64,000 nt of DNA from Myxococcota bacterium (GTDB lineage: Bacteria > Myxococcota > B64-G9), in NCBI GenBank assembly GCA_022710975.1, contig JAKLGA010000005.1, positions 310,001-374,000 of the forward strand, given 5' to 3'. The notes under the pieces were generated by a model. That model did not search any database and was not told the origin of the DNA. It saw only the letters and a program-made list of their open reading frames with translations. Position numbers and translations under genes: made by a program. The stretch's first letter is position 1. Every line of letters starts with the position of its first letter. Of this stretch, positions 1,812-19,700 are shown one piece after another.

Positions 1812-1817
1812 GCTGGT

Positions 1818-1847
1818 GTTCTAGCACCTGCCCCACGCCACGCGCAA
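1818..1847 (-). promoter_or_regulatory. Sigma-70-like promoter, leaderless start of the Omp85-like gene
   Basis: On the minus strand TTGCGC (1842-1847) and TAGAAC (1818-1823) are separated by 18 nt. The -10 box ends 6 nt before the ATG at 1811, so transcription should begin at or within a base of the start codon, leaving no room for a Shine-Dalgarno sequence. Confidence 0.5.
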
Positions 1848-1867
1848 GTCCGCGCCGAAGCTCGGGT

Positions 1868-1897
1868 TTGACAAGCCTCGCCCCGGGCCGCTACAGT
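1868..1897 (+). promoter_or_regulatory. Sigma-70-like promoter for the 1939 gene
   Basis: TTGACA (1868-1873) and TACAGT (1892-1897) are separated by 18 nt on the plus strand. The start would be near 1904, giving a leader of about 35 nt before the GTG at 1939. It is divergent from the Omp85-like promoter, so both are packed in a 127-nt intergenic region. Confidence 0.6.
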
Positions 1898-1938
1898 GCA
1901 ACCGGCCAAGGAAAACGCGTGAACCCGGGAGCCAGGCC

Positions 1939-2940: not shown

Positions 2941-3002
2941 CCGATGCAGGCGGACCCGCGAGGCTACGTACAATAGAGGACGACGAGGCGGGAAGAGGGA
3001 GC

Positions 3003-4775
3003 ATGGAGCCGACCAAGCCCAAGGCGTTGTACGCCTCCTTCGACCACATCCCGGGCCCCACGGGCACGGCCTGCTGGTCGGTCGAGGTGATCCGCGCCCT
3101 CTCCCGCCGCTGCGACCTCGACGGGCTGACGCTCAAGAACGAGGATCTCTCGCACATCGAGCGGTTCCACAAGGCGCGCCTGCTGCGCGTGCCGCTCGGC
3201 GGCGGACCCTTCCGCGAGCGCATCAAGACCTTCCGCCGCGCGCTGCACAGGCAACTCGGCAGCGAGGACTACCGCCTGGTCCACTTCACCTCGATCTGGG
3301 AAGGCATGGAGCTGTGCAGCCAGAAGAAGTCCCACAGCTACAAGCTGGTGTACGAGATCCACCGCCTGCCCTCGATCGACTTCCGCCTGAGCAACCCGGA
3401 GGACGCCCAGGAGATCGAGACCTCGCTGTCGCTCAAGCAGCAGGAGGAGCGCTGCTTCGCCCTGGCCGACCAGCTCATCGCCGGCTCGGAGCTGGTGGCC
3501 AAGCACCTCGAGCGCCGGGGCGTGTCCGCCTCCAAGATCAGCGTGGTCACCCCGGCGGTGAACCTGGCCCCCTTCGAGCGCGTGGGCCCGCCGAGCGGCG
3601 GGATCGGCACCATCCTGTACCTGGGCAGCATCAAGCCCTGGCAGGGGGTCGAGCTGCTGCTCCACGCCCTGGCCGGCCTGCCACGCCACATCCGCACGCG
3701 CCTGATGGTGGTGGCGCCGCGCGAGCAACCCTGGGACAAGGAGCTGCGGGAGCTGGTGCAGCGGCTGGGCCTGACCCGGTCCGTCGAGTTCCTCGACCCG
3801 GTGCCCTTCGAGGATCTGCCGGCCCTGGTCTCCCAGGCCTCCATCTGCGTGGCCCCGCTCAGCAACCACGAGCGCAACCGCATCGTCGCGCCCGTGCCCC
3901 ACAAGGTGCTGGTGTACATGGCCGCGCGCCGGCCGGTGGTGGCGCCCCAGCAGCCCGCCTTCCGCGATCTCGTCGAGCACGGCGTCCACGGCCTGCTCTA
4001 CCCGCCCAACGACGTGGCCGGGCTGGCCGAGGCGCTCATGCAGCTCCTGCTCGACCGCGAGCTCGGCGTCCGCCTGGGCAACCAGGCCCGCGCCCACCTG
4101 GAGGAGCACTTCGGCCTGGAGCGCTCCCTGGCGCGCCTGGTGGAGGTCTGGGAGCGGCTGGCCGGCCCCTTGCCGGAGCTCGAGACGGCCCCCGCCCGGG
4201 TGGCCGACACGGACGAGCAGCCGCTCGAGGCCCCGCCGGACACCCGCAAGGTGCTGGCTGGTGAGGCGTCGCCCTCCGCGGCCGCCGACAAGTTCGGGGC
4301 TGACACGGCCCCCGTGCCCCTGCGGCCCGCCCAGGCAGAACCGCCGCCGGACACGCACCCCGACCGCTCCCTGCCCGCGGCGTCCCCCGCGGAGGCGGAT
4401 CTGCCCGAGGAGCTGAGCTTCAGCGCGGTGGAGGCGGCTCCGCCCGGCCTGCCCGGCGAGGAGACGGACGCGGACCGCTGGCAGGTGCTGGACATGTCCC
4501 AGGTCCAGCTCGCCCCTCCCCGCCGCAAGGCGCCGGCGCCCGAGGATGGCCAGCCGCCCACCGATCCCGCCCGCCCGCGCTACCTGCTGGGCGGCCCCCC
4601 CTACCCGGTCGAGGCCGACGGGGAGACGCCGGGCAGCGAGACCCAGCGCGCCCCCACCCAGCGTGGCGGCGTTCCCCGCGGCCAGGGCAGCGGCCCGGCG
4701 CCCGCGGTCTCGGCGGCGCCCGCGGGCCAGAACCCGTCCCAGGCGCCCGCCGGCAAGGGCCCCAAGCCTGCCTGA
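3003..4775 (+). CDS. GT4-family glycosyltransferase with disordered C-terminal tail
   Basis: The 590-residue product starts at ATG 3003, preceded by a GAGGGAGC ribosome-binding site and a TACAAT -10-like hexamer (2969-2974). Residues 1 to about 405 form a two-domain GT-B glycosyltransferase of the GT4 (Glycos_transf_1) family: an N-terminal acceptor domain, then ILYLGSIKPWQGVELLLHAL and the donor-site region with VPHKVLVYMAARRPVVAPQ and the E-H-G-V-H-G-L-L-Y-P-P-N loop that binds the nucleotide-sugar. From about residue 410 the sequence becomes Pro/Ala/Glu/Gly-rich and looks disordered, an unusual 180-residue extension. It probably transfers a sugar to a cell-surface glycan, but donor and acceptor cannot be told. 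The open frame continues far upstream of 3003 because of high GC; only the part from 3003 looks like protein. Confidence 0.8.
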   Translation: MEPTKPKALYASFDHIPGPTGTACWSVEVIRALSRRCDLDGLTLKNEDLSHIERFHKARLLRVPLGGGPFRERIKTFRRALHRQLGSEDYRLVHFTSIWEGMELCSQKKSHSYKLVYEIHRLPSIDFRLSNPEDAQEIETSLSLKQQEERCFALADQLIAGSELVAKHLERRGVSASKISVVTPAVNLAPFERVGPPSGGIGTILYLGSIKPWQGVELLLHALAGLPRHIRTRLMVVAPREQPWDKELRELVQRLGLTRSVEFLDPVPFEDLPALVSQASICVAPLSNHERNRIVAPVPHKVLVYMAARRPVVAPQQPAFRDLVEHGVHGLLYPPNDVAGLAEALMQLLLDRELGVRLGNQARAHLEEHFGLERSLARLVEVWERLAGPLPELETAPARVADTDEQPLEAPPDTRKVLAGEASPSAAADKFGADTAPVPLRPAQAEPPPDTHPDRSLPAASPAEADLPEELSFSAVEAAPPGLPGEETDADRWQVLDMSQVQLAPPRRKAPAPEDGQPPTDPARPRYLLGGPPYPVEADGETPGSETQRAPTQRGGVPRGQGSGPAPAVSAAPAGQNPSQAPAGKGPKPA

Positions 4776-4825
4776 GCCTGACCCCGCGCCGCGGTGCGGC
4801 CTGTGGCAGGAATCTCTTCGAGCTC

Positions 4826-5374
4826 CTATCCGGCCCGTGGGAAGAGCTCGTCCTCCACTTCCAGCAGCCGGGCGCGCGCGAGCTCCAGCAGCGCGGGTGG
4901 CGCCAGACCCTCGGCGGACAGCAGCCCCACCCGGGTCCGGCTGGCCTCGGGCGCGATCGAGGGGTCCTCGACGAGCCCCGCCAGCTCGGCCGGCGTCAGC
5001 GCGCCCAGCGCCTCCCGGTCCGCGCTGCCCTCGAGCAGCAGGCGCGCGGAGGGCACGGCGGCGGCCAGCGCCCGAACCAGCACGCCGGCGTCCGGGCCGG
5101 CGCACCACTGCGCGCGGAGGGCCGCGCGCTCCTCGTCCTGGAGCCCGGCGCCGGCCAGCATGTCCTCGGCCACCGCGCCGCGCCGGGCCGGGTTGGCCGC
5201 GGTGAAGTCCGCGTCCAGCTCGGACAGCAGGCCGAGCAGGCCCCAGCGGTCCGGCTCCCCGCCCAGGCGTCCGGCCAGCGCCTCCATGATGGCCTCGACG
5301 GCCAGCGCCCGCCGGCGCACGGAGGCCGTGCGCACGTGGCGCCGGAGCAGCAGCCAGGCCTCGAAGCGGGTCAC
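4826..5374 (-). CDS. HD-superfamily protein lacking its metal-binding residues
   Basis: The 182-residue product starts at GTG 5374, overlapping the stop of the upstream kinase gene by 4 nt (GTGA). The first 90 residues match the layout of single-domain HDIG-type phosphohydrolases: a Leu-Ala-Val-Glu-Ala-Ile-Met helix, then LAGRLGGEPDRWGLLGLL. Active members have a His before LAVEA, His-Asp after GLL, and later His residues. Here these read Arg, Ser-Glu (LLSELDAD), Arg-Gly and Ala-Gln. Every expected ligand is substituted, so hydrolysis of phosphoesters is unlikely. The fold may be retained for protein binding, as in HDOD regulators. It is the last gene of an operon with two histidine kinases, which suggests a signalling partner or inhibitor role (inference). 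The C-terminal half is a helical Ala/Leu-rich region without a recognised domain. Confidence 0.55.
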   Translation of the reverse strand: MTRFEAWLLLRRHVRTASVRRRALAVEAIMEALAGRLGGEPDRWGLLGLLSELDADFTAANPARRGAVAEDMLAGAGLQDEERAALRAQWCAGPDAGVLVRALAAAVPSARLLLEGSADREALGALTPAELAGLVEDPSIAPEASRTRVGLLSAEGLAPPALLELARARLLEVEDELFPRAG

Positions 5375-6705
5375 GCGCCGGCCTCCGGGGTCGGACCGCC
5401 CAGCGGCAGCTCGAGCACCAGCTCCCCCTCGCCGCCGCTCGCGCGCAGCTCGAGCCCGCCGCCGTGGAGCTGGGCCACGCGCCGCGCCAACCCCAGCCCC
5501 ATGTGGATCCCGGGCGCGGCGCTCGCCTGCCGCCCGAAGTCCGTGAACAGGTCGGCCACCTGCTCGGGCGCGGGCGGAGGCGCGCCGAGGCGCACGCGCA
5601 GCTGGACCCGCGCCGGGCCGAGCGCCTCGACCTCGATCACCTCCCCCCCCACCTCCAGCATGGCCGCCAGGCTGCGCACCAGGCGGGGGACGTCGGCGAC
5701 GATCTCCTCGAGCCCCGCCGGCGCGCGGAGCGACAGCGGCCTACGCCGGAAGGCCGGCCCGAGCTCCTGCACGGCGGCCACCAGGCTGTCCAGGCGGACC
5801 GGCACCGGGTGGAGCAGGACCCGGCCGGCCTCGAGCTGGGAGGTCCACAGGATGTCGTTGATGAGCAGCAGCAGCCGCTCGCCCTCGTCACGGATGATCG
5901 TCAGGGCCTCACGCGCGCGCTCCCCCAGGCCCGGCCCGCGCAGCAGCAGGTCCGAGTAGCCCAGGATCGAGTTCAGCGGCGTGCGCAGCTCGTGGCTGAC
6001 GTTGCGCAGGAAGTGCGCCCGCAGCCGCTCGGCCTGCTCGACCTTCTCGGCGTAGCACGCGAGCCGCCCCAGCTCCTCCTCCAGCCGGGCGGCCAGGCGG
6101 TTGAAGGCGGCGGCGAGCTTGCCGGTCTCGTGGGGTGAATGGACCGGCAGCCGGCCGATGCGCGGCTCGTGCCCGTCGCGGGCCAGCTCGTCCAGGCGCT
6201 GCACCAGCCCGAGGGCCTCCGCGCGCAGGCTGCGGCCGGACAGGATCCCGACCCCGAGGGCGAACACCAGCGCGAGCAGCGAGACCAGCGCGCCGTCGCC
6301 GCCGAGCATGCTGCCCGCGCCCGGCGCCAGGGCCGTGGCCTGCCGGCCGTCGATCCACACCACGGCGGCGACGCCGGCGGCCGCGGAGGCCAGGAAGAGC
6401 ATGGCCGCGCGGCTGCGCAGGCCGAGGCGCAGGTGCCCGGGCACGCGCTCGAGGCCCGGCCGGGGTCGCCGCAGCCCGAGCAGCCAGCTCCCCAGCAGGA
6501 ACGCCCCGCCGCCCCCCAGGCACAGCCAGAACACCCAGGCGGCCGTGGCCGCGGCCTGGGCTCCGGTCAGCTCCTGGCCCTGCAGGGCGACCCGCGCCAG
6601 GCGCCCGACCTGGATGGCCGAGGCCGCGAGGCAGCCGAGCAGCAGGAGCCCGGGGGCCGCCACCAGCGCCGGCAGGCTGCCGCGCTCTGCGCCCGGGCGG
6701 CTCAT
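5371..6705 (-). CDS. Membrane histidine kinase-like protein with degenerate ATP-binding domain
   Basis: The 444-residue product starts at ATG 6705, inside the ATGA overlap with the upstream kinase. It has two hydrophobic helix pairs in the N-terminal 190 residues, a HAMP-like linker (ending FNRLAARLEEEL) and a normal dimerisation/phosphoacceptor motif (FLRNVSHELRTPLNSILGYS). The C-terminal HATPase_c domain is abnormal. Where kinases have the N box (N-x3-N-A-x-K) this protein has RSLAAMLEVGGEV, and the G1 motif (D-x-G-x-G) is replaced by RLGAPPPAPEQ. Only the G2-like GLGLARRVAQLHGG is kept. ATP binding is therefore doubtful while the phosphoacceptor His remains. It could act as a phosphotransfer partner or dimerisation partner of the intact kinase encoded just upstream. 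No response regulator is adjacent. Confidence 0.75.
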   Translation of the reverse strand: MSRPGAERGSLPALVAAPGLLLLGCLAASAIQVGRLARVALQGQELTGAQAAATAAWVFWLCLGGGGAFLLGSWLLGLRRPRPGLERVPGHLRLGLRSRAAMLFLASAAAGVAAVVWIDGRQATALAPGAGSMLGGDGALVSLLALVFALGVGILSGRSLRAEALGLVQRLDELARDGHEPRIGRLPVHSPHETGKLAAAFNRLAARLEEELGRLACYAEKVEQAERLRAHFLRNVSHELRTPLNSILGYSDLLLRGPGLGERAREALTIIRDEGERLLLLINDILWTSQLEAGRVLLHPVPVRLDSLVAAVQELGPAFRRRPLSLRAPAGLEEIVADVPRLVRSLAAMLEVGGEVIEVEALGPARVQLRVRLGAPPPAPEQVADLFTDFGRQASAAPGIHMGLGLARRVAQLHGGGLELRASGGEGELVLELPLGGPTPEAGA

Positions 6706-8393
6706 GCTCCGGCCTCCCGCGCGCGCTGGGCGGGCAGCCGGAACCAGAACTCGGCCCCGCCCCCCTCCCGGTTGGTCGCCCCGATCGAGCCGCCGTGCAG
6801 CTCGACGATCCGCCGCGCGATGGCGAGCCCGAGCCCCGAGCCGCGCCGCTCCGGATCGGTCAGGCCGGAGTGGAGCTGCTCGAACTCCCCGAACAGCCGC
6901 GCCAGCCCGTCCGCTGGCAGGCCGGGTCCGCGGTCGCCCACCCGCACCTCGACGCCGCCCTCGTCCAGCGACCGCAGGCTGACGTCCACGCGCGCGCCGC
7001 GCGAGTACTTGAGCGCGTTGCCCAGCAGGTTGATGAGCACCTGGCGCAGCCGCGTCTCGTCCGCCTGGAGGGGGGGCAGCGCGGGCGGCAGCTCGGCCAC
7101 CAGCTCGGCCTCGTAGCTGCGGGCCAGGCCGGTGACGGCCACCAGGGCCTCGCGCACCACCCTGGCCGGATCCACCGCGCTCAGGGCGAGAGCCATCTGG
7201 CCGCTGTCGAGCCGCGTCTGATCGACCAGCTCGTCCACCAGCCCCAGCAGGTGGTGGGCGGCGCGCACCACCGCGTGCACATCCTCTCGCTGCCCCTCGA
7301 GCAGCGCCTCGCCGGGAGCGGAGGACTCCAGCAGCAGCTCGCCGAAGCCCAGGATCGAGTGCAGCGGCGTGCGCAGATCGTGGCTGACCGCGAGCAGCAG
7401 ATCGGCCTGGCGCGCCTCGGCCTGGCGCGCCTCGGCCGCCCGCTCGCCCAGCACCCGGTGCAGGGCCTCCACCCGGCCGGCCAGCCGGTTGGTCGCCGCG
7501 CCCAGCTCCCCGATCTCGTCCAGGGAGCGCACCGGCAGACGCCGGGCGGGCTCCGCCCCCGGCGCGTCGGCCATCGCGCCCAGGCCGCTGGCCAGCACCC
7601 CCAGCTCCCGGCGCAGCGTGCCCATGGCCAGCGCGGCCAGGCCGCCCACCAGGACGACGAACAGCGGCCCACCCACCGCCAGGGCCAGGGCGCCGGAGAC
7701 GACCTCGGGCTGGAGGGCGGCCTCGGGCCCCACCTCCAGCGCCAGCCGGCGCAGGTGATCGAAGGCGGCCACGCCGGCCAGGCACCAGGCCACCGCCGCG
7801 GTGGCCGCCGCGGCCAGCACCCAGCGCTTGCGGAGATCCGGCTCCCAGGGGCGCGTGACCTCCGCGCCGCCCGCGGCCAGCAGCAGCGGCTCGAGCACCC
7901 AGCGGCCGACCAGGAAGGCCAGCAGCGCGTAGGTCAGCGCGAAGGCCAGGGACAGGATGTAGATCTCGACCACCAGCGCGGTCGGCGTCGGCAGCGCGGC
8001 CGAGCGCAGCACGGCGATGAGGGAAGCCGCCGCGCTCAGCAGCAGCAGGATCAGGATGAAGGAGTGGTAGGGGTAGCGCACCAGCCGTGCGCGCAGGCGC
8101 GCGGCCCGGGCGTCCGGCAGCCGCCCGGCCACCAGATCATCCCAGCCGCGGAGCGTCGGCCCGAGAAACAGGGCGTTGAAGGCCCAGACCACCAGGAGCA
8201 GGGTCGCCGCCACCAGGGAGTACCCGCGCACCCGCGCCGCCAGGTCCGCGGGCATCCGCACCGCGGCCGGGACCAGGGCGGCCCACAGGCCGACCAGCCC
8301 ACCCACCAGCAGGGCGTGGGCGAGCTGGAGCTGCCACAGGCGGGCCAGCGGCCGGATCGGCCGCGGCCCCCTCTTGTCCGCCGTCCCCCGCAT
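6702..8393 (-). CDS. Membrane sensor histidine kinase
   Basis: The 563-residue product starts at ATG 8393 and is the first gene of a three-gene operon. The N-terminal 270 residues hold about six hydrophobic segments, followed by a HAMP-like region (VRSLDEIGELGAATNRLAGR) and a short coiled coil. The kinase core is complete: H box (AVSHDLRTPLHSILGFGELL), N box (LRQVLINLLGNALKYS), G1 (VGDRGPGLP), F box (LFGEFEQL) and G2 (GSGLGLAIARRIVELHGG). It should autophosphorylate on the H-box His and pass the phosphate to a response regulator encoded elsewhere. No periplasmic sensor domain is obvious, so the signal may be sensed within the membrane. It is coupled by an ATGA overlap to the degenerate kinase, suggesting the two form a heteromer (inference). 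Confidence 0.85.
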   Translation of the reverse strand: MRGTADKRGPRPIRPLARLWQLQLAHALLVGGLVGLWAALVPAAVRMPADLAARVRGYSLVAATLLLVVWAFNALFLGPTLRGWDDLVAGRLPDARAARLRARLVRYPYHSFILILLLLSAAASLIAVLRSAALPTPTALVVEIYILSLAFALTYALLAFLVGRWVLEPLLLAAGGAEVTRPWEPDLRKRWVLAAAATAAVAWCLAGVAAFDHLRRLALEVGPEAALQPEVVSGALALAVGGPLFVVLVGGLAALAMGTLRRELGVLASGLGAMADAPGAEPARRLPVRSLDEIGELGAATNRLAGRVEALHRVLGERAAEARQAEARQADLLLAVSHDLRTPLHSILGFGELLLESSAPGEALLEGQREDVHAVVRAAHHLLGLVDELVDQTRLDSGQMALALSAVDPARVVREALVAVTGLARSYEAELVAELPPALPPLQADETRLRQVLINLLGNALKYSRGARVDVSLRSLDEGGVEVRVGDRGPGLPADGLARLFGEFEQLHSGLTDPERRGSGLGLAIARRIVELHGGSIGATNREGGGAEFWFRLPAQRAREAGA

Positions 8394-8399
8394 GCCTGC

Positions 8400-8428
8400 A
8401 GGGTATCGCCGCGCGAGGCGCGGCACAA
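8400..8428 (-). promoter_or_regulatory. Sigma-70-like promoter, leaderless start of the histidine kinase operon
   Basis: Minus-strand TTGTGC (8423-8428) and TACCCT (8400-8405) are 17 nt apart. The -10 box ends 6 nt before the ATG at 8393, the same geometry as at 1818, 39298 and 46113. Confidence 0.5.
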
Positions 8429-8455
8429 GGACCCGTCCCTGAGGGGCTCGAGGTT

Positions 8456-8752
8456 CTAGTCCAGGCGGGCGCAGTCGACCGCGGTCCAATCGGGCAGGGA
8501 GTTCTGCATCCCCACGAAGCGGCCATCCAGCAGCGTGAAGCACTCCGAGGAGCCCTGGCACTGGGAGCAGGCGGCCAGGCAGTCGTTCAGCTCCTCGTCC
8601 AGCGTGCCCTGGCACACCGTGCGACAGTCGTAGCAGGTGTCGTCCCAGAGGCCGCTCAGGTCGAGGTCGAAGCCGCAGCCCGCCTGGGTCAACCCGGCGA
8701 GCAGCGCCAGCACCAGGACGAGCGAACCAGCGGTGAAGCTCGAACTGCGCAT
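8456..8752 (-). CDS. Small Cys-rich lipoprotein
   Basis: The 98-residue product starts at ATG 8752, preceded by an AGGTGG ribosome-binding site. A longer in-frame start at 8887 is rejected because it would put about 45 charged residues before the signal peptide. The N-terminus is a lipoprotein-type signal (Arg2, then a Leu/Val/Ala core ending LTQAGC). The mature chain is short, acidic and holds many Cys (for example CYDCRTVCQ and CSQCQGSSEC), which implies disulphides outside the cytoplasm. No family is recognised. It lies downstream of the M1-peptidase gene on the same strand with a 172-nt gap that contains a hairpin, so it probably has its own promoter. Confidence 0.65.
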   Translation of the reverse strand: MRSSSFTAGSLVLVLALLAGLTQAGCGFDLDLSGLWDDTCYDCRTVCQGTLDEELNDCLAACSQCQGSSECFTLLDGRFVGMQNSLPDWTAVDCARLD

Positions 8753-8879
8753 TCCACCTACCTCGACGGGGATCGAAGCAACGCACATGCCGCTCCGGGG
8801 GAGCCACCGCAACCCCCCGTGACGACGTGGAGATCGAGGAGCGCCGCCCAGGGGCAGCCCCCGCGTGCCGGGGCCGTCT

Positions 8880-8897
8880 CCTGACACGGATGTCAGG
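8880..8897 (-). terminator. Perfect 7-bp hairpin after the M1-peptidase gene
   Basis: The arms CCTGACA and TGTCAGG enclose a 4-nt loop, 28 nt beyond the peptidase stop codon. There is no T-run, so intrinsic termination is uncertain; it may stabilise the mRNA end or assist Rho. Confidence 0.3.
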
Positions 8898-8924
8898 GGC
8901 CCGCACCGATCCGCAGGCCGGGCT

Positions 8925-10676
8925 TCAGGGCAGGGGGAGGGAGAAGGAGTGGGTGGCGGACACGAGCTGGAAGGTGTCCTGGGAGGACCGCCCCGCCTGC
9001 TCGGCCCGGAGCACGAGCGGCGCCCGGAAGTACTGGACCGGCGCCGCGGCCCACCCCCGGCGCTGCTCGAGCTGGATCTGCAGCTCGGCGCCGAGCGCCT
9101 GGTGCTGCTCGGCGAGCTCGAGCAGGCCGAGCCCCTGCAACCACTGGGAGTGGAACCAGCCCAGGTCGCTGCCCGCCAGGCCGTCCACCAGGGCGGTGAA
9201 GTCCTCGGAGGCGAAGGGCGTGTCCCGGTGCAGCTCCCGGAGCGTGCGCAGGCCCCCGGCCACGGCCTGCGGGCCGGCCACGTCCTCCAGCATGCGCAGC
9301 ACCCAGGCGCCCTTGACGTAGGTGATCCTGGGATCCACGGCCACGCCCGGCGCGGGCACCAGGGGCTGCTCGGGCTGGCCCAGGCGGTACAGGCCGAGCA
9401 GCGGCTCCGCCTCCCACAGCCACAGCCAGTCGGCCACCTCGGCGCCGTGCCGCTCGCCCGCGGCGGCCAGGGCCGCGAAGTCCGCGGTGCCCTCGACGAG
9501 CCACAGGTCGCGCGCCTGGGCCGCCATGCTGCCCGACCACCACTGGTGGCAGAGCTCGTGGGCCAGGTAGAAGTCGCGGCGCGGGAAGGAGCCCGAGCCG
9601 TCGTCGTCCCAGGTGTAGTTCGGCACCAGGATCATGCCCGCGGCCGAGAGCCCGCTGGAGAAGCGCTCGTCCACCCCCACCAGGCGGATGGTGCTGACGA
9701 AAGGCTCGGCGAACATCGCGGTCAGGCTCTGGCACAGCGCCGCGACCACCGGCCCGTAGCTGGCGGGCGCGATCGGGTAGCCGTCGATGCTGGTGCCCGG
9801 GATGGCGTACAGCTCGAGGGACACCGGGCCGCAGGCGGCCTCGACCCGCTCGTAGGCGGCGAGGGCGAGCGGCACCCCGCCGCGGCGGGAGCGCTGGAGG
9901 GTCCAGGTCTCGGTGCGGGTGCCGTCGGGGTTGTCGACCGCCGCCCCGCGGGTGCCGGCCATGACCAGGGTGCGATCGGCCGGGAAGGTCACCCGGAAGG
10001 TCCAGCCCGTCCCGTAGGTGGTGCCCAGCGGCTCGGGGAAGTAAGCGTAGCCGTAGGTGAAGTAGGTCGAGGCCGGGCCCAGGAGGTTCGCCAGCACCCG
10101 CCCGCCGCCCTCCTCGAAGGCGTCCAGGTAGTGCTCGATCTCGCCGTCGTGCCACAGCACCTCGAGGGTCCAGGGCTGGCCCGCGGGCACCGGGCTGGCC
10201 GGGGTCACGGTCAGCACGCCGTCGGCGTAGGTGAAGGTGGCGGCGGGGTCCGCGGCGTGGACCGCGTCCACGGCCTGGGCGTCGAGGGCCAGCGCGAGGC
10301 TGGAGAGCTCGGTGCCCACCGCGCCGAGGGAGAGCACGGCCCGGCCCGACAGGTTGCGCTCGGCCGGCCGCAGGGTGAGCTCGACCTCGGCGGCGGTCAG
10401 CGCCGGCGCGGGCCACACGTCGCGGGGCTGTCGGTCGGCGGCGGAACCGGCGCGGTCCCGGGCATGGTCGAGGCAGAAGGCGCGGGGCCCCTCGCGGCCC
10501 CAGGCCGGCCCGCCGAACAGGGCCTGCTGGCCCGGGTCCGGGGCCGGGAGGTCGAGGCGCAGCAGGCGGTGGCCGGGATCGACGATCACCTCGAGCCCGC
10601 CGCTCCCGGCCCCGTCGCCGCAGGCGGCCGCTCCGATCGCCAGCACCGAGATCACCAGGCGCGCAATGCTTCTCAT
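8925..10676 (-). CDS. M1-family (gluzincin) metallopeptidase, putative lipoprotein
   Basis: The 583-residue product starts at ATG 10676 with a signal peptide ending in AAACGDG, probably a lipoprotein anchor. The N-terminal half is a beta-rich aminopeptidase-N-like domain. The zinc motif HELCHQWW is at about residue 373, and the third ligand Glu lies in WLVEGTADF about 20 residues later, the H-E-x2-H-x18-E pattern of M1 peptidases. The canonical GAMEN exopeptidase loop is not visible; the region about 25 residues upstream of the zinc motif reads MILVPNYTWDDD. Specificity may therefore differ from classical aminopeptidases. The gene starts only 8 nt after the stop of the signal-peptidase-like/GNAT gene, so it may be co-transcribed with the peptide cassette, although its high GC content matches the host genome rather than the cassette. 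Confidence 0.75.
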   Translation of the reverse strand: MRSIARLVISVLAIGAAACGDGAGSGGLEVIVDPGHRLLRLDLPAPDPGQQALFGGPAWGREGPRAFCLDHARDRAGSAADRQPRDVWPAPALTAAEVELTLRPAERNLSGRAVLSLGAVGTELSSLALALDAQAVDAVHAADPAATFTYADGVLTVTPASPVPAGQPWTLEVLWHDGEIEHYLDAFEEGGGRVLANLLGPASTYFTYGYAYFPEPLGTTYGTGWTFRVTFPADRTLVMAGTRGAAVDNPDGTRTETWTLQRSRRGGVPLALAAYERVEAACGPVSLELYAIPGTSIDGYPIAPASYGPVVAALCQSLTAMFAEPFVSTIRLVGVDERFSSGLSAAGMILVPNYTWDDDGSGSFPRRDFYLAHELCHQWWSGSMAAQARDLWLVEGTADFAALAAAGERHGAEVADWLWLWEAEPLLGLYRLGQPEQPLVPAPGVAVDPRITYVKGAWVLRMLEDVAGPQAVAGGLRTLRELHRDTPFASEDFTALVDGLAGSDLGWFHSQWLQGLGLLELAEQHQALGAELQIQLEQRRGWAAAPVQYFRAPLVLRAEQAGRSSQDTFQLVSATHSFSLPLP

Positions 10677-10684
10677 GCCTCACC

Positions 10685-11689
10685 CTAACCCTTCAGGCGC
10701 TTGACCAGCCAGTGGTCCGCCTCCCGCAGCCCCGCCGGCCGCTCCCACGGGGCCGACTCGAAGAAGCCCCGGGAGCGGAACAGGCCCAGGGAGCGCTCAT
10801 CAACTTCCGGGACCAAGGCTACCACTCCGGTCCACTGGTCCTCGCTGGCGACCGCAACTGCGCGTTCTAGAAGGCTACGTCCCAATCCCATGCCGCGCCA
10901 ACCGCGCTTGACGTGTAGCGAATGAACGAGCCCAAGCGTTCCCGCGCTGACGAGGATCATGCGACCGAGATCAGGGAACCGCTTGCCACCGATCAGGATC
11001 ATCCGGAGGAGCTCATCTTTTGCGGATTGTTCAATGCTCTCGATTCCGAACGGATTGAACTGGCCACTGACTGACAGAGCTTCCGCCAGCACGCGCGCCT
11101 GGTTGCGGACGACGTCCAGAACCGGATCACCGAGCACGAGCCGTCCAATGCTCTGGCCAAACCCACGGAAGGATCCCATCGAGAAAACATCAACCTCGAA
11201 CCTGCGCGTCAAGTACTCAGACCGGATCAGCACCCGCTTTCCTCGGAACGCCAACCCCGACCAGATGCTCGCAAGATCGCGGGACGAAGGGACCTCCAAC
11301 TGAATGGTCCATCCCTCTCTTTCGACCGCAATGACTCGTCCAAGGACTGCAGGAAGAGGGATGGGGCCGTCGATGGTCGTGGCACTGTCGCCCCGGCCGA
11401 AGAGTTGACCATCAACGACTCGTACTACCCGATGTGCAACTATCCGGTCACCTACGGAATACAGTGCAATCATTCCGCGCTTCAGCTCTGTTGGCTTGGA
11501 ATCCACGATCAGGCGATCGCCTGGAAGAATCCATGGGCTCATACAACGGCCGATCATGATGCAACGTTGGAGGCCCTTTTCGCACGGCACTCCACCGAGC
11601 AGCAGAACGCCGGTTGTCTTACTCCCAACGGAAATGAAATCACTCCGCGCAGACAAGACCTTTTGCCTCCGCGCATCTCCCTCACTCAC
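10685..11689 (-). CDS. Signal-peptidase-like (S24/S26) domain fused to a GNAT acetyltransferase
   Basis: I place the start at GTG 11689, overlapping the radical SAM stop by 8 nt (334 residues); an in-frame ATG at 11737 lies deeper in the upstream gene. Residues about 35-125 resemble S26 signal peptidases: KGLQRCIMIGRCMSPWILPGD matches the G-x-S-M-x-P-x(3)-GD motif, but the nucleophile position is Cys49 instead of Ser. A His-Arg-Val-Val motif at 86-89 matches the His of archaeal/ER-type enzymes. The C-terminal 80 residues are a GNAT domain, with the acetyl-CoA loop in RGWRGMGLGRSLLERA. Such S26-like proteins are known companions of HPrK-like kinases and PqqD in RiPP clusters. The likely job is leader cleavage and/or N-acetylation of the peptide encoded at 13503-13682 (inference). 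The gene is low in GC, like its two upstream neighbours. Confidence 0.65.
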   Translation of the reverse strand: MSEGDARRQKVLSARSDFISVGSKTTGVLLLGGVPCEKGLQRCIMIGRCMSPWILPGDRLIVDSKPTELKRGMIALYSVGDRIVAHRVVRVVDGQLFGRGDSATTIDGPIPLPAVLGRVIAVEREGWTIQLEVPSSRDLASIWSGLAFRGKRVLIRSEYLTRRFEVDVFSMGSFRGFGQSIGRLVLGDPVLDVVRNQARVLAEALSVSGQFNPFGIESIEQSAKDELLRMILIGGKRFPDLGRMILVSAGTLGLVHSLHVKRGWRGMGLGRSLLERAVAVASEDQWTGVVALVPEVDERSLGLFRSRGFFESAPWERPAGLREADHWLVKRLKG

Positions 11690-12695
11690 AGCATGGCTCA
11701 ACGCTACGCGTGTGCTCGAAAAGCATGACCCTGGCAACGATTTCCTTCTTCAGCGCCATGTCAACTCCTAACCGATCCGCAACCTTACGACAAATCTCCT
11801 GGTCCTTCAGCCAGCCAAGGCAAAAGCCACACTTCGTTTCCTGATCGGGACGCCTGCTGATGCCCACACGGCGAAGAAACCCCAGTGGGCCAAACACGAA
11901 CAATCCAGCCAACAGAAAACTCCGCCGATAGCGATCAATCAACCTGTCGATGGGCTCTTCCCTGACTGTCCCCACATCCAGCCAGGTTCCTTTCGCCTGG
12001 AACATCAAAGTCGAGCAGCAAGCCATGAAACGGCCATCAGGAAGCACTAGGGGGAGGAGAACGGTACCACAATCCCGCATGGTAGATGGCCCCCGCTGAT
12101 GATCTGCAGGCAAGCCGCGTCCTGTGCCTATCGTCTCGAGATTCTCCCACCCTGGTCGAACTCGGACACTGCTCAGATCTGGGTGGCTAGAGACTCGCGC
12201 CCACTTCTTCCTGGCGAACCTGCCCGTACCCTTGAGACTCACCTCCATGCCAAGTTGGACTGCCTCCCTGAGTAGCCTAATGGCTTCCTGATCAGAAAGT
12301 GCTGGCCGGTGATACTCGTCAAGGCTGAGGGAGAAAATCCTCAAGCCCAGTCGAAATGCTGTGCCGAGCAACTTCCTGGCCTTCTGCCAATCTCGCGACC
12401 ACAGTCCATTCGTCACGATGGCGGCAATTCGGCCATGCGCATCAATACGCGATAAGACATCGAGCAAGCGCTTGGGCTCAAGGAACGGCTCGCCCCCAGT
12501 AAGACTTACAAGGCTCACTTCATCCGGAAGATGTGCCAAAACAGAATGCACCACTTCTGGTTCGTAGGCATCTCTTTGGCGTATCCTACGCGGGAGAAAG
12601 CAGTGCAGGCAATGAGCGTCGCATTTCCAACTTAGCGCCAAGGAAAGGACACGACAACGTAGAATTGGGATCTCAGCTATCACGTGATCAGCCAT
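11682..12695 (-). CDS. Radical SAM protein with SPASM-like C-terminus (peptide maturase candidate)
   Basis: The 337-residue product starts at ATG 12695, overlapping the kinase-like gene by 8 nt. Near the N-terminus Cys25-x3-Cys29-x2-Cys32 (in SWKCDAHCLHC) is the radical SAM cluster motif, followed by the SAM-binding SLTGGEPFLEP motif and the VTNGLWS strand. The C-terminal region carries further Cys in SPASM-like spacing (DCGTVLLPLVLPDGR then ACCS, and KCGFCLGW then EIC, ending EPCC), which could hold an auxiliary iron-sulphur cluster. SPASM-type enzymes typically modify ribosomal peptides by forming thioether or C-C bonds or epimerising residues. The protein is too short to carry its own peptide-recognition domain; the PqqD protein at 20755 could supply it. 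Substrate assignment to the 59-residue peptide is inferred from operon position. Confidence 0.7.
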   Translation of the reverse strand: MADHVIAEIPILRCRVLSLALSWKCDAHCLHCFLPRRIRQRDAYEPEVVHSVLAHLPDEVSLVSLTGGEPFLEPKRLLDVLSRIDAHGRIAAIVTNGLWSRDWQKARKLLGTAFRLGLRIFSLSLDEYHRPALSDQEAIRLLREAVQLGMEVSLKGTGRFARKKWARVSSHPDLSSVRVRPGWENLETIGTGRGLPADHQRGPSTMRDCGTVLLPLVLPDGRFMACCSTLMFQAKGTWLDVGTVREEPIDRLIDRYRRSFLLAGLFVFGPLGFLRRVGISRRPDQETKCGFCLGWLKDQEICRKVADRLGVDMALKKEIVARVMLFEHTRSVEPCCE

Positions 12696-13458
12696 GTCCG
12701 ACTTCCTCGACCAACTTGGTTACATCGTCAAGCCTGCGGAACTGGAGCCTGAAAACCCGCCCAAGACCGATCCAATGTAGAATTGTCGCGAGAGCAACAG
12801 ATCTCTGGCTGGCAAAAACCTCAGGCAACACGGTTTGGAGTGCAAGTGCACCAACTGCAGCATCTAAGGACATTCTATCAATCCTGGCGAACCCACCCTT
12901 CTCAAGGACGAATAGACCTCCCAGGCGACCTCCATTCTGATTACCAGTCCGACCGGCATTATCGAACTGAGGCACGCTGAAGACTTCAACAGATTGTCTT
13001 ATACTTCTGACAGCAATGCGATCGTCATTCACACGCGCAAGCCCACTGGCATTCCTCAAAATGGTAGATTTTCCAGCGCCCGAAGGACCCACAAAAACAT
13101 ATGCCAGTCCATCTTTAAGCCCACAAGACGCGTGCAGCAATAGCCCACGCCTCGCGATTAGCGCCCACACGATCCCGTATCCGATTCCATCGACTAGGGA
13201 CCTCTCGCTCTCCTCATCAATTCCAACCACGACTCGATGCAATCCCCAACCGAGCAACAACGGCTCTGGGGAAATGGACTTCCGAGGACGATCCTCTGAA
13301 ACTCTATTATTGCTCACCAGATCAATGTGCATATACGCGCGTTGAACGCCAACTGTCCGAAAGCCACTCAGAAGCCTTACCAGCGCGCGGGAGGGCCTCG
13401 CCTCGGATTCAACCAGAAAGCAGAGGCCTCCAGCGGTGAAGTAGATGCGATGCCGCAT
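12688..13458 (-). CDS. HPr-kinase-like (HprK-related) P-loop protein
   Basis: The 256-residue product starts at ATG 13458, 44 nt after the small peptide gene. It has the C-terminal HprK fold: a LLLHAS strand, Walker A GPSGAGKST at residues 124-132, and a conserved NDD at 144-146 that in HprK lies near the active site. The N-terminal 100 residues do not match the HprK/P regulatory domain, so this is an HprK-related kinase rather than the carbon-regulation enzyme. Relatives in lasso-peptide and other RiPP clusters phosphorylate Ser residues of the precursor peptide. The neighbouring peptide contains several Ser and Thr that could be targets (inference). It is co-directional and overlaps the radical SAM gene by 8 nt. 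GC is about 52 % in the lines counted, far below flanking genes. Confidence 0.65.
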   Translation of the reverse strand: MRHRIYFTAGGLCFLVESEARPSRALVRLLSGFRTVGVQRAYMHIDLVSNNRVSEDRPRKSISPEPLLLGWGLHRVVVGIDEESERSLVDGIGYGIVWALIARRGLLLHASCGLKDGLAYVFVGPSGAGKSTILRNASGLARVNDDRIAVRSIRQSVEVFSVPQFDNAGRTGNQNGGRLGGLFVLEKGGFARIDRMSLDAAVGALALQTVLPEVFASQRSVALATILHWIGLGRVFRLQFRRLDDVTKLVEEVGHG

Positions 13459-13502
13459 AACAAGAGCACAGAGGAGCGATTCAGTAGCGGGCTAAAGGCG
13501 GA

Positions 13503-13682
13503 CTAGTTGTTCGTACGGCGCGGCCCATCGCGAAATGGTCCGTACCCATCGCCCACCACACCTCCCGAAACGGGGACTTCGCTAGCACCACTGATGGTGT
13601 TCAGCAGAAACTTTACCAGTTTCGATGTGACAGAAGGCTTCAAATAGGTCTTCCGGTTCCTAGGCTGCTGAATTTTTGTCAT
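13503..13682 (-). CDS. 59-residue candidate RiPP precursor peptide
   Basis: The ORF starts at ATG 13682 with a strong GGAGGA ribosome-binding site in the 18-nt gap after the FG-GAP gene, and ends at TAG 13503. The N-terminal part is basic (Arg8, Arg10, Lys11) and carries Tyr13-x2-Pro16-x-Val18, resembling the Y-x2-P-x-L leader motif that PqqD-type RRE domains recognise in lasso and related precursors. A Leu/Val/Lys helix follows (residues 19-30). The C-terminal part is a Gly/Ser-rich candidate core: Ser-Gly-Ala-Ser at 31-34, Gly-Gly at 40-41, then GDGYGPFRDGP and a basic end RRTNN. It has no Cys. It is followed by HprK-like, radical SAM and S26-like/GNAT genes, the expected surroundings of a precursor. 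Function as a precursor is inferred from motif and context. Confidence 0.65.
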   Translation of the reverse strand: MTKIQQPRNRKTYLKPSVTSKLVKFLLNTISGASEVPVSGGVVGDGYGPFRDGPRRTNN

Positions 13683-13700
13683 GGGATTCCTCCAAACAAA

Positions 13701-16700
13701 TCAGTAGCGAACTACCAGTTGGCCGCTACTATTGGCGCCTACTGCCAGGTCAGGCAGTGAATCACCGTTGTAGTCACCGACCGAAAGGTCCACACCAAAA
13801 TAAGATCCGTTGGCCCCGGAAAGCACACTGCTCGGCAAGCTATCAAAGAAAGGCGAACCACCAGCGGCTGTTCGATTATTCATAAACAGGAAGGCGCGAT
13901 GCCCGCCGGAGGAATTACATCCCACCTGCAGATCGGGCCAACCATCCATGTTGAGGTCCGCGGCATCGAAAGCGATACCAAACCAGATATTTTCTCCCCA
14001 GGATAGGCGTCTTGCGAAAACAGGGTTGATTGCTACGGCTGGATCACCCGCCACCACATGACCCGGTAGCAGGTAGACTTGGTTAGCGTAGGCGCTTGAT
14101 ACAACTAGATCCAGAATCCCGTCACCAGTGACGTCCATTCCTCCGATGGCAAACTGTCCAAATCCGCCATTGTCGATGACCGCACCGTAGGTGATCAGGT
14201 CCACACGGTGGCTCGCGTTGCCCGGGCTCACGTCGCCCACGATGCTACTGATGTTTGCGCCGTCAAAGGTGTAGGTCTCATTCACACGCGAGGCGCTGAT
14301 GGCAACGTCGTCGAATCCGTCTCCATCCATGTCACCCAGGCTCGTGTTGCCGTAGCGGGATCCCAGACGGTCATCGGCATCGATGCCGAGGAACTTGATC
14401 TCGGCCTCGGCCGCTGGCACGAACCGGACACCGGACTCGAGGCCGGTCCGCACGTTGGTGTCGTCGAACCAGTAGTAAAGCGTGGGATGGGCAGGGTCCA
14501 CGGCTGAACGCGGCCGGCCATAGAAGATGTAGCCACGGCCATTCAGGTCGAGCCGGTTGGCTGAGACGAACAGGTCACCATATCCGTCCCCATTGACGTC
14601 ACCCATGGCGGCGTAGCTGAGCCCGAACCGGCCAGTGGTCGCTGTGTTTCCGCGAATCTCCAAGTCTGGTCCCGTCGGCGGGTTGGCAGCAAGGTCGGCG
14701 CGGCCGAAGTAGATCGATAGCCTGCCACGGTAAGACTGGAAACCATTTCCCCCGATGGCGAAGTCGTCCACTCCATCACCATCGATGTCGCCGATCTTCT
14801 GCACGAAGAACGCGAACGATTCACCAGCGGTCCCATGAAGCAGCGGGATGGGAGTGGCCGGAAGGTTCCATGTGCTCAGATCAGTCGCACCGAGGAATAG
14901 CCAGGCCGCACCGTAGTTGGTGCTGTAGGTGGCGGCGCCGACCACGAGATCGTCGCGCCCATCGCCATTGACGTCGCCGACGTTCCGCAGAGTGTAACCA
15001 AAGTTGACTGTTGCAGGGCCCGTGTAGGCCACTTCGTTCCAGTTGTTCCCCACCAGCACGTCCCCGTGGATCGGGCTCTGGTTGCCCACCTCGTCCACGG
15101 CGCGGACCGCCACGTGGTAGTCGTTCAGCGGCGGGAGCACCAGGTTCGCGCCCACACTCGCCCCGCTGTACACCTGGTACACCGGATTCGGCCAGGTGGT
15201 GCCGGTGTAGAACCAGCGCGCCTCGTCGTTGATGGCCGCGCGCGACCAGCGCACGTTGTAGGCCGCCGGCGTGCCCGTGGCGCCGTCGTCCCCCACCGCC
15301 GCCCAGCCCACCACCACGTCCGCGTGGCGGCTGGCGGCCGGATCCGCCCCCAGCGCGGCCGTGGCCGCCAGCATGGCCGGGGCCTGCACGTCCGCCGTGA
15401 CCGACAGGTCGAGGGTCGCCTCGTTGCCCGCGTAGTCCCGCACCCGCGCCACCAGCGCGTGCACCTGGTCGTGCGCGAGCTGGGTGTTCGCGTACACCAC
15501 GTTCTCCGGGCTCCCGTACACCAGGCTCGGCCCCTGGATGGGCGTGCCGCCCCGCTCCAGGGTCAGGGTGGCCTCGAACCCGTTCGCGATCTGGTCGTCG
15601 GTCACCGTGAGCTCGAAGTCCATGTCGCAGCCGCCGCCGGCCACCTTGTCGCGCACGTAGCTCGCCGGCGCCGGGGTGTTGGGATCGTCCAGGTGCAGGT
15701 TGCCGCTGCTCGCCACGCAGAACACGTCGGCCGCGCCCGGGCGCACCCGGGTCAGGGTCGGCAGCACCATGTCGACCAGCTCGACCGTCACCAGGTCCGT
15801 GGTGATGTGCCCGGCCTGGTCGTCGATCTCGGCCGTGAGCTCCACGTTGGCCGCGCCCTGGGCGAGCGTGACCCCGCTCCAGGTGGCGCAGCCCGCGCCG
15901 TCGGGCGCGACACCCGCGCCGAAGGGCGTCCCGCCCACGAGCAGCCGCAGGCGGCAGCCCGGGCAGGTCAGGTTGGTGCAGGCCGCGCTGCAGGCCGTCA
16001 GGTTCTGCTGCAGCCCGTTGCCGGCGTTGCCGTCGAGGTCGTCCGCGGCGTTCCACAGCTCCGTGCTGCTCAGCCCCTGGAAGCTGAGGTCGCAGCCGGC
16101 GATGGTCACCGACACGTTCAGGATGGTGTCGCTGGCCGGGTTGCCGGCCGGGTCGCGGGTGGTCACGGTGAGCGTCTGCCCGGCCCCCGGGGAGAGGTTG
16201 CAGTTGAAGGAGGTGGTGCCGCTGCCGTCCACCGGCACCTGGCAGCGCTGGCCGCCCACGCTGGAGACGACCGTGATGGTCTGGCTCGCGTCCGTGCCGC
16301 TGGTGGCGCACACGAAGGGGACCTGCTGCTGGACGAAGCTCGCGTCGTCCAGCGGCTGGGAGCAGGCGATGGTCGGCGCCAGGGTGTCCACCAGGACCGG
16401 CCGGCTCGCCTGCACGGCCGGGTTGCCGCAGGCGTCGCTCACGTCCGCGCTGAGGGTGGTGTTGCCCTGCCCCAGGCTCTCCACCCGGCTGGCCACGCCG
16501 CCCGAGACCGTGGCCGTGGCCCCGGCCATGGGCCCGAAGGTGACCACCTGGCCGTCCTCGGCGTCGGTGGACACGGCCAGGCTGAGCTCGAGGTCGTCGG
16601 TGGCCGGATCCAGGACGTCGTCGGCCTTGACCAGGGTGCTCTTGCTCGGGCTGGTCAGCAGCAGGCCGGGCGCGGTGGTGTCGACCGACAGCAGCACCCA

Positions 16701-19700
16701 CGCCTCGGGGTCGTCGATGATCGGCGCAGCGGCCCGGATGTTCGGGTTGTCGAGCGCGTCGCTCAGCACCACGGTGAGGTCGTAGTCGCCCTCGGCCAGG
16801 CTGACCGAGAAGGTGGCCAGCCCGCCGCTGACCGTGGTGGTGCCCAGCGAGCTGCCGGGCGGCCAGTTGCGGTACAGGGTGGCGGTGCGGTCCTGGACCC
16901 CGGTGCCCTGGTCGGACACCACGGCCTGGAGCTGCAGCCCGCCCTCGGCCTGGTTCAGGCAGCCGTCGGCGTTCGCGTCCGAGAGGACCGTCAGCGTGTC
17001 CACCGTGGGCGGCAGGCTGTCCACGACCAAGGCCACCCCATTCGAGAACGTGCCCTGCCCCGGCAGGTCGGCCGGGGCGGCGAAGGCATACAGGGTGATG
17101 TCTCCCTCGGGGATGTCCACGCAGGAGAGGATGGTGGTCCCGTCCGCCGTGGCCACCGTGCCCTGCCACAGCGAGCGGCCGAACCCCGCCGCGGTGCAGC
17201 GATCCGGCGAGCCCGGGACGGGCAGGGGGCAGGGGCCCTCGCACACGCACAGCTCCAGGAGGTCCCCCGCCACCACCCCGTGGGTCAGGATATCGACCTG
17301 GGTCTGCAGCCCGTCCGGCGGGCACATGTCCGAGAAGATGTTCAGGTTGCCGGCGACAGGTCGGGTGATGATCACCTCGGGCGCGGACAGGTTGATGAAC
17401 ACGTCCGACAGATCCGAGTCCGGCGGGTTCACCGGGTCGCTGATGGTGGCCAGGATGGACACGTTGGCCTGGATCGGACCGGCAGGCATCAAGGTCACCG
17501 CCGGGAAGACATAGATGTTGGTCTGGCCCGCGGCCAGGGTGTGCGTGTCGGCGACGATCCCATCCACCTGCAGCTCCACCACGTCGCCCACCTGGGCGTT
17601 GGTGAACTGGCAGCGCACGTTGTACTGGAACCCGGACGCGGCCGACACGTCCGAGGCTGCGCCCAGGATGGAGCCGTTGCTCGGGCTGGTGATGACCACC
17701 AGCGGCGCCTGCCGATCGACCAGGATGTTCCGCGCCGGAGACTCGGCGCAGTGGCCCGCGCAGTCGCAGGCCTCGGCCGTGACCGCGTGGGCGCGATCGG
17801 CCAGGGTGACGACCGGTCGAGCGACGCCGCCCGAGAAGGTCGGGCTGTCGATCAGCTCCTCGACGTCATTGACGGCCACAGGTCGTCCGTCCTGGACGTC
17901 TGCGGTGACCTCGAGCTGCATCTGGAAGCCGGCCCTGACCGGATCGAAGTCCACCGCGGCGGCGCCCACGCTCAGGTCCGCGGCCGGGTCGGTGATGGCC
18001 ACCGTGGGTGTGGTGAGATCCACGATCACCCGCACCGGCAGCGAGGTGCCCACCGTGCCGAGCTGGCCCGGCGCGCTGGCCCAGAGCTGGTAGTCGCCCT
18101 CCCCGCCGAGGTCCACGGTCAGCGCGCAGCTCCCGTCCACCTGCAATTGCGCGACCTGCCCATCCGCCGCGGTGCACTCGGGCACCGGCTGCGGGTCGTA
18201 CGCCCGCACGCACACCAGGCAGTCGCCGGTGGCGTTCGCGGTCTGGGCGGCCAGCTGGTAGCTCGCGAGCTCGCCGCAGGTGTTGTCCGCGGGCGCGGTG
18301 ATCACCACGCTGGGCGCGTTGGGCTCCCCGACGAACAGCAGCAGCTCCTCGAGGCTGGTGTCGCAGGAGTTGGTCGCCTCGACCTCCAGGCTCACCTGCC
18401 CGTTGGGGAGCTGGACCCCGGCGAAGGTGGCCACGCTGCCGGCCCAGGTGGGGCTGGTGTAGCTCACGCTGACCGCGCCCTGCACCACCCGCAGCTCGAG
18501 GCTGCCCAGCCCGGCGACGAAGTCCAGCACCTCCACCTGCACGTCGTAGGCGGCGCCGTCCGGGACCTCCACGGGCTCCGGCAGGGAGCCGTCGGGATCG
18601 AGGAAGGTGATCACCGGCCCGCCCGCGCAGGGGAAGGCGGTCACGGTGATGGCGTCCGTGGCCGGGTTGCCGTGCGCGTCGGTGAGGGACGCCGTCAGCA
18701 GCGTGTCCCCGCTGAAGAGGGTCACCGGGAGGGTGAAGCTGCCGTCCGCCGCGACCGTGCCGGTGAAGGCCTGGGTGTTGACCCCGTCGCTGGCGGTCAC
18801 GGTCACGAGCTGGCCGACCGCGTCGGTCGAGCCGCCCGAGACCTGGATGTCCAGGTGCCCGAACACCGCCCGGTCCGGCGGATCGAGGATCTCCACCGTG
18901 GGCGCCAGGGTGTCCACGGTCACGGTGACCATGGGCGAGACCTGCTGGGTCTGGAGCTGGCACCACAGGCCCTTGTCCTCGCCGTCCAGGAGCGTCACCT
19001 CACCGCTCCAGCCGTTGGCCTGGACCGGCAGCCCCGCCAGGGTGTCCTGGCCGCCGATGTGCAGATCGAAGGTGAAGCCGTCGGGCACGTTGGCCGTGAC
19101 CACATGGACGGTGGTCTGCAGGCCGTCCGCGGGGTCGGCGTTCTGGTCGTCGGCCAGGAGCAGCACCGCGCCGTCGGCGGGCGCCACGATCTGGCAGGTG
19201 AGCTGCTCGGTGAGCACCGGGACCTGGTGCACCGCGCTCATGCCCTCGTCCTCGCAGGTGCTGCGGGCCTTGACCTGGACGGCGTAGGTGCGCGACTGCA
19301 GCAGGTCGAGGTACTGGAACTCGAACGCGCCGCCGGGCTGGAACAGGGCCGGCTGCAGGGGCGCGCCGTCCTCCTCCACCACCACGCCGTCGAGCTCGAG
19401 CCACAGGCCGTCGGGCGAGGTCACGCCTTGCGAGGTGCCGCGGACCGCGATCTGGATGCCCATGGCGGCCGGGTCGCGATCGCTGGTGTCCGTCAGGGTG
19501 ACGCCCTCGGCGGGGGCCTCGAGCGCGACCGCCACGCTGGTGGCGCACACCCGGTACACGTTCGTCAGCGAGCGGCCCTCGGGGCCACCCGGGGCCGCCA
19601 CCGTGGCGAACGCCGCGTGGGTGCCGTCCGCGAGCGTCACCACGAACTCGGCCCGCCCGCCCGCGAGCACGCCCTGGGACAGCTCGCCGCCCACGTCCAG

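Follow-up and report, generated by a model that had tools for sequence, protein, structure and literature searches.

A Cys-type S26B-like domain, fused to GNAT, in an operon that points to an epipeptide-like system in Myxococcota

A 334-residue protein of a Myxococcota bacterium joins an S26-like domain, with cysteine in the nucleophile column, to a GNAT domain, and its gene lies beside genes for a short precursor-like peptide and a homologue of the radical SAM enzyme YydG/EpeE. The gene occupies positions 10685–11689 on the reverse strand of the window, the 64,000-nucleotide stretch of contig JAKLGA010000005.1 that was analysed (GTG start at 11689, stop at 10685). The finding is real, and Cys in an S26 domain is better supported than an earlier, sequence-only reading of the stretch could show; that observation was confirmed as a whole, and its interpretation in part. 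We give slightly better than even weight to the reading that this is an epipeptide-like RiPP operon in which a cytoplasmic Cys-His S26 protease trims an epimerised peptide.

The S26B-like (Sec11/SipW-type) domain covers residues about 38–135 (11285–11578, reverse strand), as assigned from a profile match to SEC11A/C and from alignments A2 and A3. Its motif is GRCMSP...AHRVV: the protein reads GRCMSPWILPGD, with Cys at 49 (codon TGT, 11543–11545, reverse strand), then AHRVVRVV, with His at 86 (codon CAT, 11432–11434, reverse strand), followed by GRGDSATTIDGP, a linker and the GNAT domain (residues about 185–334; 10688–11137, reverse strand). In a single-sequence Pfam scan the S26 half matched PF00717 at E 0.053, below threshold, and the GNAT half passed PF00583 (Acetyltransf_1) with 26 bits against a gathering cut-off of 20.7. 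The ORF, this score and the relatives bear out the fusion noted earlier, and a chance motif is ruled out because five genomes of the window's class have the same fusion in the same operon place. A frameshifted or accidental ORF was likewise rejected as the source of the gene, since homologues keep the same gene order. A first scan of genome contigs with the window protein returned 30 stretches and no relative, tblastn of plasmids gave a single match confined to the GNAT part, and a PHROGs search gave nothing informative. In the window protein no membrane anchor of the S26B type was found (hydrophobic 19-mer maximum 1.25, not strongly hydrophobic). Around the active site, none of 11 S26 proteins showed a membrane-like stretch, so the S26 protein is probably cytoplasmic.

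A profile of five homologues of the window protein (A2) matched human SEC11C (E 3.4e-6, over positions 44–104) and SEC11A (E 4.1e-6). The printed alignment pairs the Cys49 column with the Ser of SGSMEP and His86 with the His of VHRV, residues that we take to be catalytic in SEC11. The earlier claims of a Cys at the S26 nucleophile position and of a retained Sec11/SipW-type His both hold in this comparison with SEC11A and SEC11C. M50, P52, G57, D58, H86 and R87 are invariant in the A2 alignment. Ser51, which the sequence-only reading had named as the competing nucleophile, was rejected because its column is Glu in three relatives (L031, L032 and L033), and Cys49 keeps its place. AlphaFold2 models were weak: the one built from three sequences had a mean pLDDT of 55.5 (about 50–59 around residue 49) and a pTM of 0.38. 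Foldseek and VIA lists were filled by the GNAT half.

The domain resembles the Sec11/SipW signal peptidases (MEROPS S26B; TIGR02228, sigpep_I_arch) in its GxxMxP..GD segment, in the His base within HRV and in a further GD downstream. It differs from them in having Cys for Ser, no membrane anchor, a GNAT fusion and a RiPP-like operon. TIGR02228 did not match the window protein, and it matched four other proteins (L162, L165, L161 and L040) below its cut-off only. One report states that human SC11A has a histidine where E. coli signal peptidase has lysine (PMC12984324). Judged by the letter, membership of S26B fails on one defining residue, the Ser, and we call the protein a Cys-type variant of S26B, which probably works as S26B enzymes do. 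Of the earlier proposal of an S26 catalytic variant, the Cys in the nucleophile column stands, but the wording 'new catalytic variant' was too strong. The signal peptidase of E. coli reportedly stays active when its Ser is mutated to Cys.

Across 36 collected S26 domains the nucleophile column holds Cys in 12, Ser in 24 and nothing else. The set comprises 42 rows found with a regular expression, less seven that were not S26 (L040_26, L087, L089, L113, L134_32 and two window rows), which leaves 35, plus one row added by hand (L010). The expression demanded a downstream His, so that conservation of the His is built into the set; a Ser-type protein that fails the expression (L021) lies outside it. 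The 12 Cys-type domains, each followed by the His, come from Myxococcota and from genomes sampled around Desulfopila and Aminicenantes.

The DNA pattern GxCMxPx(hydrophobic)xxGD gave 12 matches in 11 of 195 genomes of the phylum, and the reversed control gave 2. Four matches (L147, L151, L152 and L154) were dropped because no S26 sequence follows; each of the remaining eight is an S26 domain with the His. Among 395 genomes from the phylum of the Desulfopila locus L059 there were two matches (control 0), each an S26 domain extended by a GNAT-like part, and among 287 from the phylum of the Aminicenantes locus L067 there were also two (control 0), both S26 and one with GNAT. The 289 genomes from the phylum of the Planctomycetota locus L053 gave one match (L167; control 1), which is not His-type and was left out of the Cys-type count. 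The Cys of L167 belongs to a GWCMYPNLWDGD motif; VKRL comes after it, and HR is absent. The protein looks Lys-based and may be of a Cys-Lys S24-like kind. Thirty-two mixed genomes yielded 0 matches (control 1). A second DNA pattern, which allowed Ser, Cys, Thr, Arg or Trp at the nucleophile codon and fixed a 27-residue step to HR, gave 62 matches in 62 of the 195 phylum genomes (control 0). By eye these were 2 Cys (G000 and G006) and 60 Ser, about 50 of the latter being near-copies within family f13. Taken together, the pattern counts indicate that Cys is rare but recurrent in S26 domains.

A tree was built from 31 S26 domains after five near-copies from group f13 had been set aside, and on it Cys requires 4 changes of state (bootstrap 4-5). 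A single clade for all 12 Cys rows, set against 19 other rows, was disfavoured with the nucleophile column masked (p-AU 0.018), and again without five long-branch rows (9 Cys rows against 17; p-AU 0.024). The long-branch Cys rows L143, L153 and L164 are poorly placed. Few branches are well supported, and those with strong support force only one Ser/Cys change. Within the window's class three Cys proteins group together (92/86), beside two Ser proteins (81/59). Several exchanges between Ser and Cys are thus likely on this tree, and repeated exchange suits a nucleophile better than decay.

The genes around the fusion lie on the reverse strand and are closely packed. The S26-GNAT gene overlaps the upstream radical SAM gene (11682–12695) by 8 nt, which in turn overlaps by 8 nt a gene for an HprK-like P-loop protein and putative kinase (12688–13458; P-loop GPSGAGKST, alignment A6). 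The gene for the peptide ends 44 nt before the HprK-like gene. This 59-residue peptide, mentioned in the sequence-only reading, is an ORF at 13503–13682, with a Shine-Dalgarno-like GGAGG (13689–13693) ahead of its ATG, a leader with YLKPSVTSK and a C-terminus reading YGPFRDGPRR; homologous peptides occur in nine further loci. Upstream of it lies a giant lipoprotein gene (13701–20621) encoding 2306 residues with Ig-like repeats and C-terminal FG-GAP repeats (Pfam FG-GAP, E 2.9e-28). On the other side, an M1-type metallopeptidase lipoprotein of 583 residues (8925–10676; PF01433 above cut-off) starts 8 nt past the S26-GNAT stop. By all signs in the sequence, the genes from the peptide to the M1 peptidase form one operon. 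The HprK-like protein scored E 0.0012 with TIGR04249 and E 0.0034 with TIGR04355, both far below cut-off, and in the PDB its profile matched nothing but P-loop proteins.

The same order, giant FG-GAP lipoprotein – peptide – HprK-like protein – (radical SAM enzyme) – S26, was found in nine loci from three Myxococcota families: f1 (the window, L031, L032, L033 and L034), f12 (L134, L135 and L156) and f17 (L133). The FG-GAP lipoprotein gene adjoins the peptide in every one of them. A tenth peptide (L121) follows a lipoprotein gene at a contig end. The module peptides, 40–59 residues long, share a leader, YxxPxxxSK/E, and a C-terminus of the form (Y/F)GPxRExPRR or YGxFxRPPP, from which single loci depart. 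The S26 domain has Cys in six of the nine loci (the window, L031, L033, L134, L135 and L156) and Ser in three (L032, L034 and L133); Cys is therefore not essential to the system. A GNAT or GNAT-like stretch is fused to S26 in f1 and f17, and the f12 S26 proteins are without one. An M1 peptidase gene accompanies the module in the window, L031 (cut), L033, L034 and L133 and was not seen beside L134, L135 and L156; the L032 stretch ends too early to judge.

Single loci add variations on this arrangement. In L156 (9356–10513, reverse strand) the HprK-like protein and a Cys-type S26 domain are fused in one ORF of 385 residues, which is preceded by a giant FG-GAP gene and by that of a peptide. No radical SAM gene was seen in the roughly 5.3 kb read on the S26 side of this locus, and its genome (G056) has no match to the module radical SAM profile at E 1e-25, so that epimerisation would not be universal in the module. 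In L033 (7799–9991, forward strand) one ORF, directly ahead of the gene for the Cys-type S26 protein, encodes the radical SAM enzyme and, behind it, a methyltransferase-like stretch. The window also encodes, at 4826–5374 (reverse strand), a 182-residue protein with 47% identity to the product of L033 13138–13626; synteny with L033 thus reaches past the M1 gene.

A compositional island spans window positions of about 10900–15000, with low GC3 over the cassette and 0.9-0.99 on both sides. GC3 is 0.52-0.67 in the peptide, HprK-like, radical SAM and S26 genes and 0.98 in the M1 gene. The lipoprotein gene has mostly 0.92-0.99, then 0.78 at residues 1800–2100 and 0.59 after 2100; the fall begins inside its FG-GAP end. 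An exchange may have replaced both the cassette and the final part of the lipoprotein gene. The GC3 contrast is milder in L034, and little or none was found in the other loci.

Scored alone, the window radical SAM enzyme matched best the YydG family epimerase model TIGR04078 (E 1.1e-21), at 77.6 bits against 300 required and hence below cut-off. A profile of eight module radical SAM enzymes (A7) matched the YydG structures 8ai6, 8ai1 and 8ai3 (E 2.3e-30, over positions 21–305 of 345), and the match takes in the CC pair and the auxiliary-cluster CxxC. Cysteines 25, 29, 32, 209, 226, 227, 289 and 292 are invariant in all eight enzymes. PADLOC gave only a viperin-like match of the radical SAM core and a marginal P-loop match. 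When epipeptides are made, according to PMC8326336, EpeE/YydG inverts two residues, Val36 and Ile44, and the H-donor proposed for it is Cys223; we infer that this donor corresponds to one of the CC pair.

The gene context points to an epipeptide-like system. As in yydFGHIJ/epeXEPAB of B. subtilis, a short precursor stands beside a radical SAM enzyme of YydG/EpeE type that has the CC pair and auxiliary cysteines; unlike that operon, the window has an HprK-like protein, S26, an M1 peptidase and a giant FG-GAP lipoprotein instead. YydH is described in PMC7026026 as a putative membrane protease thought to process the epipeptide. No YydH-like protease or YydIJ ABC transporter was recognised by eye among the ORFs read beside the cassette, which makes the S26 protein the natural candidate for the processing enzyme. 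The window peptide had no family match.

Cys-type S26 domains also occur in clusters of another kind. Three of the four from other phyla (L161, L162 and L165) lie in PqqD/HprK/radical SAM clusters. With L155, these PqqD/HprK-like/radical SAM-SPASM clusters share with the window a Cys S26, an HprK-like kinase and a radical SAM enzyme, but their radical SAM enzymes are of other types and they include a PqqD protein; the stretches read of the four showed no gene for an FG-GAP lipoprotein. The L165 cluster (1394–9105, forward strand) is RiPP-like, with two radical SAM ORFs, a 63-residue Cys-containing peptide, PqqD, a Cys-type S26-GNAT protein, another radical SAM enzyme and an ABC transporter. 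In L161 (1819–3828, forward strand) a 669-residue ORF has, by eye, a radical SAM start and an HprK-like kinase end. A more distant comparison is the SynChlorMet cassette (ScmC-ScmF, NCBIfam), whose ScmC was the best RiPP-specific match of the HprK-like protein (E 0.0012, below cut-off). The SynChlorMet radical SAM proteins are of another type than the window's. We know of no S26 among the Scm proteins.

In the favoured reading the 59-residue peptide would be made with its N-terminal leader (YxxPxxxSK/E), and the YydG/EpeE-type enzyme would epimerise at least one of its residues. The protein that weak scores assign to the HprK type would act on the same peptide, perhaps as a kinase. The soluble cytoplasmic S26B-like domain would then cut the modified peptide, with a Cys49 thiolate activated by His86 and an acyl-thioester intermediate, and cleavage would release a C-terminal core around YGPFRDGPRR. 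By eye, each of the ten peptides has an Ala or Gly no more than four residues ahead of the conserved motif; a small residue at this place would suit a signal-peptidase-like preference. The GNAT part would have an accessory role: it may acetylate the product or simply assist in binding it. The operon structure, its conservation, the nucleophile column and the YydG homology are observed; that Cys49 catalyses, which substrate is cut and where, phosphorylation, and a part played by the FG-GAP lipoprotein are inferred. A broader form of the proposal is improbable in our estimate, namely that a Cys-His Sec11/SipW fold arose several times from Ser ancestors in RiPP operons, works in the cytoplasm on radical-SAM-modified peptides and uses its thioester also for acyl transfer (ligation or capping).

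The S26 domain could instead be non-catalytic, only binding the peptide and presenting it to the radical SAM enzyme and GNAT, with the Cys as a tolerated change; we regard this as possible, though doubtful. SipA of Streptococcus pyogenes is said to lack the catalytic pair. This signal-peptidase-like protein is reported to be needed for pilus polymerisation, and it offers a precedent. Pfam S24/S26 scores below threshold for the proteins studied here also fit, as does the activity of YydG-type epimerases without leader, reported in PMC8326336, which leaves another role for a part that binds the leader. A dead domain should, however, vary at the nucleophile column, and Cys or Ser in 36 of 36 S26 domains argues for a working enzyme rather than a decaying site, which weakens the earlier suggestion of an inactive, peptide-binding domain. 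The f12 proteins (L134, L135 and the HprK-fused L156) keep Cys and His, moreover, and the standalone ones barely exceed the S26 domain.

That the S26 domain cuts and the fused GNAT acetylates the new N-terminus, cleavage and acetylation in one protein as proposed earlier, now appears unlikely. The window GNAT keeps its RGWRGMGLG motif and has a predicted fold like GCN5/PCAF (VIA Z 11.5, rmsd 3.4, 137 aligned), and a GNAT-type extension accompanies 6 of the 12 Cys-type S26 domains, including L159, L160 and L163 outside Myxococcota. The position of GNAT is conserved among relatives, but its acetyl-CoA motif is not: intact in the window protein, L034 and L133, it is partly degraded in L032, L033 and L161 and lost in L031 and L162. 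Pfam GNAT models gave no match in 5 of 7 extended proteins scanned (L031, L032, L033, L161 and L162), and an eighth (L165) scored 20.5 against the cut-off of 20.7. Because the motif is degenerate in several relatives and the domain is absent from one family, f12, whose Cys S26 proteins do without it, cleavage plus capping is unsupported; Ser-type S26-GNAT fusions also occur (L003, L005, L010, L019 and L028). An amine rather than water might also resolve the thioester, ligating the peptide to itself or to the FG-GAP lipoprotein, an outcome that we rate as very improbable. Cys nucleophiles favour aminolysis in other peptide ligases, every module locus has the lipoprotein gene as a neighbour, and the low-GC3 stretch of the window spans the C-terminal end of the lipoprotein together with the cassette. 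Against ligation, no candidate acceptor was identified, the S26 protein seems to stay in the cytoplasm, from which the lipoprotein is exported, and Ser-type members have the same neighbours.

In the open-access literature we found no description of an HprK/PqqD/S26 peptide cluster, of an FG-GAP-linked RiPP or of a Cys-type S26 enzyme. The swap to Cys may define a naturally occurring variant of a familiar protease fold. If true, a recurrent natural Cys nucleophile in the S26 fold would let one test why most of the family uses Ser, and a Cys-type S26 enzyme would give a thiol-trappable RiPP protease. The module would show that epipeptide-like chemistry reaches beyond Firmicutes into Myxococcota and there relies on another processing enzyme. 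It also links a modified peptide with a giant surface lipoprotein of the FG-GAP type, in a concrete, testable system.
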